Shown here one piece after another: positions 23,779 to 25,385 of a stretch of DNA of 64,000 nt. The notes beneath the pieces were generated by a model that saw only the letters and a list, made by a program, of their open reading frames with translations, was not told the origin of the DNA and searched no databases. The stretch covers positions 1 through 64,000 of the forward strand of contig NZ_SIHJ01000003.1 of the NCBI RefSeq assembly GCF_007859765.1, given 5' to 3'. Numbering within the stretch: position 1 is the first letter of the stretch; every line of letters begins with the position of its first letter. The DNA is from Posidoniimonas corsicana (GTDB taxonomy: Bacteria > Planctomycetota > Planctomycetia > Pirellulales > Lacipirellulaceae). The translations under genes and the position numbers were made by a program.

Positions 23779-23843
23779 GTAGGGTGCGGCCGATAGGCCC
23801 ACCATCGTTCGGTTCGCAATCTCGAATACGGTGGGCGTCCGCT
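23779..23843 (+). repeat. REPIN copy A (right arm truncated)
   Basis: Begins GTAGGGTGCGGCC-GATA-GGCCCACC, a hairpin with GGCC arms flanked by GGTG/CACC, and continues with GCAATCTCGAATACG and GGTGGGCG. It lacks the closing CGCCCACC-CTAC arm. It shares 28 identical bases (from GCAATCTC to CGTCCGCT) with copy B. Confidence 0.8.
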
Positions 23844-23898
23844 ACAATTCTATCCGTAGTTACATCTCCCTAGGCCATTCGGTACCCATTTCGTGTCA

Positions 23899-24306
23899 AT
23901 GTCCCGTTTCCCTAGAGACCGCTATCAACCAGAGGAGTTTGTGACTGCCTTTGAGAACTTCTCAGCGGTCGCTGACTCAGACCCTCCGTATTATTCACTT
24001 GCGATAGGCGACGAGGCCATTGAGGTACACTTTCCGAATCGCTTCATGGAACCTCTAACACCGAGCGACATCTCTTTAGCACGGCGAGCGTTGGAGCATG
24101 TGCGACACATGGACAACCAGGTTCAGGACTTGTGTGAGAAAGATTCGAGGAGCCTTGACATCACGCAGTTCCTCTTCCGGATCGCGTACTTCTCTGTAAG
24201 GGAGGATCAAGTGTCGATCACTTATTGGGGAACCGAGGTAAACACCGAGTGGGACGCGATCTTTGAGAGAGGTGCCGATGGATCGTGGAGCCTACTCCAC
24301 GGTTGA
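23899..24306 (+). CDS. Hypothetical protein between REPIN copies
   Basis: 135 residues from ATG 23899 (GTG 23893 is an alternative). Composition is less GC-rich than the genome background. It is acidic, with YYSLAIGDEAIEVHFPNRF and FVDGx-like end WSLLHG. The segment VSITYWGTEVNTEWDAIFE resembles small orphan or immunity-type proteins, but I cannot name a family. It lies exactly between REPIN copies A and B. No promoter or ribosome site stands out. Confidence 0.6.
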   Translation: MSRFPRDRYQPEEFVTAFENFSAVADSDPPYYSLAIGDEAIEVHFPNRFMEPLTPSDISLARRALEHVRHMDNQVQDLCEKDSRSLDITQFLFRIAYFSVREDQVSITYWGTEVNTEWDAIFERGADGSWSLLHG

Positions 24307-24316
24307 CCAGCCGCAA

Positions 24317-24394
24317 TGAGGGTCGGTAGACCAACGCCGTTCGATTGGCAATCTCGAATACGGTGGGCGTCCGCTTCGCTCCCGCCCACCCTAC
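24317..24394 (+). repeat. REPIN copy B (left hairpin degraded)
   Basis: The left part (GAGGGTCGGTAGACCAACG) has lost most of the hairpin seen in the other copies. The right part is intact: GGTGGGCG-TCCGCTTCGCTCC-CGCCCACC followed by CTAC. It lies 15 bp after the stop codon of the RAYT gene. Confidence 0.8.
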
Positions 24395-24409
24395 ATTTTC
24401 CTTTGCTTG

Positions 24410-24961
24410 CTATTCAAATCTGCTCCACTCATCTCCGTACCACTCGGCGGCGTTGCCCCAATACTTGGAGTACTCACCAGCCCGAACATACCGATGAAAA
24501 GATGACCAGGGCCAGTCAATCACGCGGTCGACAAGGCCGTGCTTCAACGGGTTCACATGAACGTAGTCGATGCACCGTTTGAGATCCTCCTCATCTCGGC
24601 AGGAGTGCTCGTACCCGCGGCGTTGCCAAACACCACGTTCCCGCTTCGACTCTCGGCTGGCTGAGCGTGGTCCCTCTGCCCCTCCGGCGGCGAGCCAGCC
24701 GCGCGTGAAGCCGCCCTTGATCTGATTCCATCGAGTGGAAAAGTCGGCGTCTCCCGCCGGGAGCGTCATGACGCAGTGCAGGTGATCCGGAAGCAGTACG
24801 ATTGCCTCGACCGCGAACGGAAAGCGTGCCCGCACAAGTCGGAACGAGTTCCTGAGAATCTGCCGCGCCGCGGGCTCCGTCAAGAAGCAACGCCTGTGGT
24901 GCGTGACAATCGTGAAGAAGAAGGTCCCTCCCGGCACGAATGCACGACGATAGTTGGGCAT
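24410..24961 (-). CDS. REP-associated tyrosine transposase (RAYT)
   Basis: 183 residues from ATG 24961; the longer frame with GTG 24991 runs into REPIN C. It is an IS200-like Y1/HUH protein: the metal-binding HUH motif is DHLHCVM (His60 and His62), and the catalytic Tyr is Tyr133 in CIDYVHVNPLKHG, the YxHxNP box of RAYTs. WQRRGYEHSC and DWPWSSFHRY are also typical. Known RAYTs bind and cut REP hairpins at a GTAG tetranucleotide. The gene is framed by REPIN B (15 bp downstream) and REPIN C (6 bp upstream), both carrying GTAG/CTAC ends where intact. Expected host: single-copy domesticated transposase. Confidence 0.92.
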   Translation of the reverse strand: MPNYRRAFVPGGTFFFTIVTHHRRCFLTEPAARQILRNSFRLVRARFPFAVEAIVLLPDHLHCVMTLPAGDADFSTRWNQIKGGFTRGWLAAGGAEGPRSASRESKRERGVWQRRGYEHSCRDEEDLKRCIDYVHVNPLKHGLVDRVIDWPWSSFHRYVRAGEYSKYWGNAAEWYGDEWSRFE

Positions 24962-24967
24962 CGAATG

Positions 24968-25051
24968 GTAGGGGGTGGCCGATAGGCCCACCGCAGGTTG
25001 ATTGGCAATCTAAAGTGTGGTGGGCGTTCGCTGCGCTGCCGCCGAACCTAC
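24968..25051 (+). repeat. REPIN copy C
   Basis: 84 bp from GTAG to CTAC. Left hairpin: GGTGGCC-GATA-GGCCCACC. Right hairpin: GGTGGGCG-TTCGCTGCGCTGC-CGCCGAACC, with two changes from the consensus arm. It fills the whole space between the RAYT start and the small gene at 25055-25294. Confidence 0.85.
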
Positions 25052-25054
25052 GTT

Positions 25055-25294
25055 CTATTCCCACCAACGAGTTCCGCCAAGTATTCTCGACCTCAGGTGC
25101 TCACACGCGTCTGACTCTGAGTCAAACTCGCGTACCGTATTCTCTTCCCCACGTTCAAAGAAGTACGTTCTCCATCGCCCGCCTGCGCTTCGACTCAGAC
25201 AGTAGGCTTCATCGGCATTAACGCCGTAGAGGCTAAAACACTGCGACGGCACGCCTGCCAATTCTAGTTCACGCCGCAGTTCGTCTCGTGTCAT
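25055..25294 (-). CDS. Small hypothetical protein between REPIN copies C and D
   Basis: 79 residues starting MTRDELRRELELAGVP, with SLYGVNADEAYCLS, WRTYFFERGEEN and REFDSESDACEHLRSRIL. I have a vague memory of similar small proteins in actinobacteria and others, possibly immunity-type, but cannot name a family. Lower GC than neighbours. REPIN C ends 3 bp after its stop and REPIN D begins 7 bp before its start. Confidence 0.6.
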   Translation of the reverse strand: MTRDELRRELELAGVPSQCFSLYGVNADEAYCLSRSAGGRWRTYFFERGEENTVREFDSESDACEHLRSRILGGTRWWE

Positions 25295-25301
25295 CGGTGC
25301 T

Positions 25302-25385
25302 GTAGGGTGCGGCCAATAGGCCCACCGATTCTGGATTCACAAGCCTGGGCGAGGTGGGCGTTCGCAGCGCTGCCGCCCACCCCAC
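25302..25385 (+). repeat. REPIN copy D
   Basis: 84 bp from GTAG to CCAC. Left hairpin GGTGCGGCC-AATA-GGCCCACC; right hairpin GGTGGGCG-TTCGCAGCGCTGC-CGCCCACC. The last four bases are CCAC rather than CTAC, so the outer right box is lost. It sits 13 bp from the stop of the phosphosugar mutase gene. Confidence 0.85.

Follow-up and report, generated by a model that had tools for sequence, protein, structure and literature searches.

REPs that carry a GTAG box beside a hairpin are partnered by RAYT genes in a class that is already described: the class itself, the RAYT-REP pairing, and planctomycete GTAG REPs have all been published (PMC2817692, PMC3116915, PMC3733652, PMC6006769), R. baltica being one of the planctomycetes in which they were reported (PMC3733652). 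For REPINs, a range of 91-323 copies was used in PMC8049555, and Table 1 of PMC2817692 puts low REP counts, of 1 to 21, on record for Salmonella Typhi and H. influenzae. In TnpAREP of Escherichia coli, the residues W94, Q95, E100, H101, and R104 are reported at the GTAG region (PMC6006769). Among the listed results of a literature search of open-licence papers, none dealt with the lineage considered here. The locus lies in Posidoniimonas corsicana, in the window (the whole 64,000-nt stretch analysed, from contig NZ_SIHJ01000003.1, here C3), and is very probably a GTAG-type REPIN-RAYT system (REPtron), small and largely old. This reading, which an initial annotation had proposed, is supported by the family of the RAYT, the box and hairpins, the dispersal of the element, and the matching between RAYT and hairpin.

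Each REPIN is laid out as a short-loop REP followed by an inverted long-loop REP (Table 1). The short-loop REP consists of GTAG and a stem such as GGTGcGGCC-GATA-GGCCCACC, in which one base is bulged, and the long-loop REP consists of GGTGGGCG, a 13-nt loop, CGCCCACC, and CTAC; two inverted REPs, each with a box and a hairpin, are recognizable, only in part in copies A, B, and D. The four copies of ∼84 bp in one orientation, as the initial annotation had them, were recovered as ungapped 84-nt copies, all on the + strand, at exactly the positions first given for A, C, and D, whereas B, first put at 24317, begins at 24311 (the covariance model gives the boundaries in Table 1). The earlier description of intact copies as running from GTAG to CTAC holds for C, but A, B, and D each lack a box or a hairpin. 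In B, the GTAG end and most of the 5′ hairpin are missing, and the damaged 3′ stem of C reads GCCGAACC, so that all four window copies depart in some way from the canonical form; cleaner, near-canonical REPINs occur outside the window at C2:87308, C1:2877830, and C3:433051. Covariance-model E-values of 1e-6 to 1e-16 (464 kb scanned) set the window repeats far apart from chance, with B, C, and D among the sequences from which the model was built and A, matched over 23779-23850 at 41 bits, not among them. As single-stranded DNA, the window copies fold moderately better than shuffled sequences (z −0.9 to −2.2), and at minimum energy D forms its two hairpins, B forms two of which the 5′ one has a short stem, and A and C pair differently. 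Flanking sequences of 40 nt show no likeness among A-D, which indicates that the element, and not a larger block, was copied there.

Table 1. Features of the REPIN-RAYT locus in window coordinates.
Feature	Coordinates	Strand	Description
REPIN copy A	23779..23862	+	GTAG and 5′ hairpin intact (23779-23803), then spacer; 3′ hairpin gone
137-aa ORF	23893..24306	+	Lies in the A-B interval; G041, of the same genus, has a homologue (61% aa) in the corresponding position
REPIN copy B	24312..24394	+	Eroded in the 5′ REP; retains CTAC and an intact 3′ hairpin (24362-24394)
RAYT (TnpAREP) gene	24410..24961	-	183 aa; H60/H62/Y133; NF047646 match; intact frame
REPIN copy C	24968..25051	+	GTAG and CTAC both there; 3′ stem damaged
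79-aa ORF	25055..25294	-	Between C and D; may be a chance ORF
REPIN copy D	25302..25385	+	Both hairpins intact; 3′ box CCAC in place of CTAC

The RAYT gene lies between B and C, as first annotated, with B 15 nt past its stop codon and C 6 nt upstream of its start codon; it is thus flanked by inverted REPs, of which the outward-facing ones are eroded. The 137-aa ORF matched no Pfam family above its cut-off, and for the 79-aa ORF, Pfam and NCBIfam gave nothing at E ≤ 1. The G+C content between copies is 0.53 (A-B), 0.60 (B-C), and 0.55 (C-D), and the neighbouring genes stand at 0.69 and 0.71; the whole interval between REPINs A and D (23863-25301) is clearly below its neighbours. A DUF1559 prepilin-like gene is also present in the window; the DUF1559 family is linked to planctomycetes.

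The 183-aa protein matches the NCBIfam model NF047646 (REP_Tyr_transpos) at 180.6 bits, against a curated cut-off of 80, and its sole match in the PDB at E ≤ 0.1 is E. coli TnpAREP (4er8, E 2.3e-37). The HLH at residues 60-62 and Tyr133 are in place as annotated; H60, H62, W112, and Y133 are present in all of the 16 aligned RAYTs and Q113 in at least 90%. In the alignment to 4er8, the five E. coli residues of the GTAG region correspond to W112, Q113, E118, H119, and R122, every one of them identical. By Table 1 of PMC6006769, its DHLH and YVHVNP most resemble the motifs of subclass 2.2 (Bertels group 2), but that table has WE at the place of WQ in the present RAYT. A protein search of the same genome (E ≤ 0.01) returned one other match, 31% identical and accompanied by a different repeat, and the family model added a third, weak match of 39.1 bits; each REP type therefore has a single RAYT copy. 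The second RAYT-family gene, C2:815915 (L030:4746-5575, C2 ∼815.7-816.6 kb; L029:5060), lies between palindromic repeats of ∼100 bp (GGTGCCGGGGGCGCTCC...), which lack GTAG and resemble the published TIR type. Elsewhere, five paired copies of these repeats were counted in 864 kb, paired ends being used since the end motif as a single-site count gave 44 in the reversed control vs. 31 in the real sequence, and one such repeat abuts, and seems to interrupt, a GTAG REPIN at C5:390989.

The element is dispersed through the genome (6.77 Mb, 13 contigs). With the consensus, blastn gave 19 matches at E ≤ 1, and R1, the covariance model made from 11 copies, gave 19 matches at E ≤ 0.1 and 16 distinct places at E ≤ 1.5e-4, having scored 150 of the 10,958 candidates, so that some weak copies on other contigs than C3 may have escaped it. 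The MAFFT alignment A2 misplaced the 5′ stem bulge in some copies, and R1 therefore models the 5′ hairpin imperfectly. The 16 places, 12 of them beyond the four in the window, form eight separate loci, and 12 lie on C3, the contig of the RAYT; a scan of 464 kb of C3 with R1 gave 12 places, two of which matched on the other strand too, and a 400-kb sample of C1 gave none. Counting clusters once, four of the eight loci are on C3, which makes up 7.0% of the genome (binomial p 0.0014), or three of seven without the RAYT locus (p 0.0098), these contig odds, like those for orientation below, having been chosen after the data were seen. Confinement to this one locus, which the initial annotation had named as grounds for rejecting its reading, is thereby contradicted; its forecast of dozens to hundreds of dispersed copies proved right as to dispersal, but the number found is smaller and falls short of the 91-323 range. 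Where ORFs were scanned, in the window and at five further loci, the REPINs are intergenic, sitting between ORFs or at ORF ends. The identity among copies is low, the best pair reaching 0.86 and the median being 0.57 when 17 places, half copies among them, are aligned.

Compensatory hairpin changes, also predicted at the outset, are found in the long-loop stem, where five of eight pairs changed on both sides (22 REPs), but in the short-loop stem they are no more frequent than in shuffles, with one of seven pairs changed on both sides (14 REPs), a value reached in 357/500 shuffles; both sets contain related sequences, which inflates the paired-change counts. Separate alignments served for these counts: A4, with 22 long-loop REPs chosen by eye and some eroded and identical ones left out, and A5, restricted to short-loop REPs of 25 nt (14 of 22). 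In the long-loop stem, 92.6% of cells are paired vs. 80.0% when shuffled and 29.5-50.6% when slid, and its pair types are not unusual (113/500 shuffles). The short-loop pair-type count is no higher than shuffled, and the short-loop stem taken alone is weak evidence.

The relation between RAYT and hairpin was followed across 97 RAYT loci, comprising the window, 16 loci from a family search, and 80 more; the 21 family-search matches had also contained L043, L048, L049, and L051, which were excluded as split or partial genes, and L099 was dropped for its short flank, leaving 96 loci that span several phyla. Within 250 nt and in outward-box orientation, a GTAG hairpin was found upstream at 82/96, downstream at 81/96, and on both sides at 73/96, compared with 181/2602 control windows taken from the same loci. 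The locus in the window itself counts as a miss on both sides because erosion has brought the outward REPs of both B and C below the threshold. Among the 73 two-hairpin loci, 70 were kept for comparison of the 8-nt arms, frames with a stop being dropped, and the window locus was added to these with its arms entered by hand. Upstream and downstream arms are identical in 49/70 loci, and arms of different loci in 1.1% of comparisons; arm distance also tracks RAYT distance (Mantel r 0.21, p 0.0005), shared ancestry being guarded against by the Mantel permutation alone. The absence of any hairpin-RAYT relation, the other outcome held in advance to count against the reading, was thus not what was observed.

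Within the family, the element was detected in 1/43 genomes (blastn, E ≤ 1e-4) and the RAYT in 13/43 (E ≤ 1e-20). Diverged REPINs of the same two-type build occur in five more genomes, from other genera of the family, with the stem GGTG in G016 and GATG in G020, G042, G018, and G019; among the GATG-type REPINs, five of eight aligned copies are changed in both arms of both REPs. In G016, G020, and G042, the REPINs have a stem type that fits the REPs next to one of the RAYTs of the genome, and the same is true, of necessity, in G000, where the REPINs themselves are the RAYT flanks. G018 and G019 combine a GATG stem in the REPIN with a GGTG stem at the RAYT flank, a mismatch that counts against the best explanation. 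A short-loop core pattern tried in ten genomes was set aside, its counts lying mostly near those of the reversed control (G000 48 vs. 30, G041 32 vs. 27, G040 24 vs. 25). G019 also holds two 123-bp units, each a REPIN with an adjoining REP of another type, 880 bp apart and 93% identical (L170:555-677 and 1435-1557), whose likeness extends beyond the REPIN itself.

The copies in the three clusters (4, 4, and 3 REPINs) have a single orientation inside each, for which the chance is 1 in 256. In 15 of the 17 aligned copies, two half copies being left out, likeness of the unpaired spacer is 0.54 within clusters vs. 0.38 between them (permutation p 0.00025), and that of the whole element 0.65 vs. 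0.61 (p 0.038). The shared orientation and spacer suggest local spread, and we infer that the RAYT copied the elements locally; the single-strand chemistry given in PMC8266576 would be in keeping with local transfer that preserves the strand. A more far-reaching proposal, in which the RAYT copies REPINs preferentially into neighbouring same-strand intergenic gaps, the clusters are private lineages, and the arrays serve as recombination seams that let small accessory genes, among them SUKH-type ones, enter and leave a few variable loci, is rather unlikely. At the two other clusters, comparison with G041 showed conserved flanks, no detectable similarity in the interval that they enclose, and no clean empty site. 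A SUKH (SMI1/KNR4) family gene (L023:6545-7051) lies between REPINs of the cluster at C3:432-434 kb, a variable spot among conserved genes.

The same-genus genome G041 has no match to the RAYT of the window at E ≤ 1e-20; it has five RAYT-family matches at E ≤ 0.001, one of them above the cut-off (92.5 bits, C3:191785) and accompanied by a different repeat. Eroded REPINs are present in G041 at C9:126522 (E 2e-5) and, more eroded, at C1:1038388 (E 5e-5). Between the same two neighbour genes as in the window, its homologue of the 137-aa gene has a REP-like relic on each side (3 and 4 mismatches), and 1/500 resampled intervals held even one relic match, the pattern having been chosen after the relics were seen. 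Because these relics flank the homologue at the same locus, REPINs were probably there before the two species parted. A recurring TAGCGTGGGCCGYCAGGCCCA-like REP-like motif in G041, mostly with CTAG for GTAG and the first stem base unpaired (L185-L188, L164, L165), speaks against strict RAYT dependence, as it recurs without a close RAYT, and the best explanation leaves it unaccounted for. Palindromic repeats of ∼80 bp and of a further type surround a RAYT-like gene of 55.5 bits in G041 (L215:1361-1445 and 2072-2149).

The RAYT is most likely what moves the elements. By analogy with the enzymes of E. coli and Stenotrophomonas, on which the expected binding, cutting at CT, and strand transfer are modelled, it would act as a single-strand HUH/Y1 nuclease that recognises the GTAG box and adjoining hairpin in single-stranded DNA, cuts nearby via Tyr133, and rejoins the ends. 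The REPIN would then be a non-autonomous element that is moved or copied for the most part into intergenic sites close by, and the RAYT gene would stay single-copy. REPIN C, so close before the start codon, may form a structure in the mRNA that lowers translation of the RAYT. Present activity of the RAYT on its REPINs is doubtful because of the low copy number and low identity. Indeed, the system may be a fossil, with the RAYT domesticated or idle and the hairpins kept between genes as transcription terminators or mRNA-stability elements, a possibility to be taken seriously if not favoured, which concerns present activity and is compatible with the REPIN-RAYT reading. The few and divergent copies, the want of a fully canonical one in the window, and the position of the copies outside ORFs or at their ends at the five scanned loci agree with it; the intact RAYT frame with its catalytic residues kept, and the survival of the element only as relics in the same-genus genome that has no close RAYT, argue against it. 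Stem pairs that change together point in the same direction, although an RNA function would explain them too.

Cassette-like arrays, comparable to integron attC, in which same-orientation REPINs bound small genes that are captured and shuffled by the RAYT or by inter-REPIN recombination, are very improbable. The orientation shared inside each cluster, the small ORFs between neighbouring REPINs (from ORF scans, not gene predictions), and the interiors without detectable similarity to G041 at two clusters would suit such arrays, but the orientation of the ORFs relative to the REPINs is mixed, unlike in integron arrays, and the 137-aa gene, found at the same locus in G041, looks resident and not captured. 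That the mobile unit is the whole 1.6-kb block, as an IS200/IS605-like transposon or MITE, is hardly credible despite its inverted ends and the Y1 transposase fold of its protein (Pfam Y1_Tnp 17.8 bits, below the cut-off of 23), since the NF033573 (IS200) score, 15.1, falls short of the cut-off of 55, the block is unrepeated in its own genome (blastn and protein search, the other protein match being the distant one above), and the dispersed unit is the REPIN.

As a REPIN-RAYT system, the locus is a compact planctomycete pair whose relatives carry GGTG and GATG stems, a natural set for how a RAYT picks its hairpin, and REPIN decay can be observed in a sister genome without a close RAYT; understanding of the class is unchanged by it. 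Of the known systems, the REPtron of E. coli (y, z1, and z2 REPs; Bertels group 2, subclass 2.2) is alike in its GTAG box, the bulged stem found in one of the REPs, the presence of two or more REP types, a single-copy RAYT beside REPs, and the kept residues of the GTAG region, as described in PMC8266576 and PMC6006769. It differs in copy number, since two of its REP types reach up to 126 and 46 copies (PMC2817692, Table 1) against the 16 places here, and the present system has a lineage-specific stem, GGTGGGC, and copies concentrated on the contig of its RAYT. The REPINs of Pseudomonas fluorescens SBW25 likewise comprise two inverted REPs with a variable spacer, lie beside a RAYT, and are clustered (PMC3116915), whereas here the copy number and identity are low and the two REPs of a REPIN are unlike. 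The GTAG REP families of Planctomycetes (R. baltica), in the same phylum, are likewise described with GTAG hairpins and tyrosine transposase genes (PMC3733652). In three marine gammaproteobacteria and Thauera, REPs are gathered near the rayt gene and not genome-wide, in regions of at most ∼200 kb according to PMC2817692, whereas here they extend over up to ∼410 kb of one contig.
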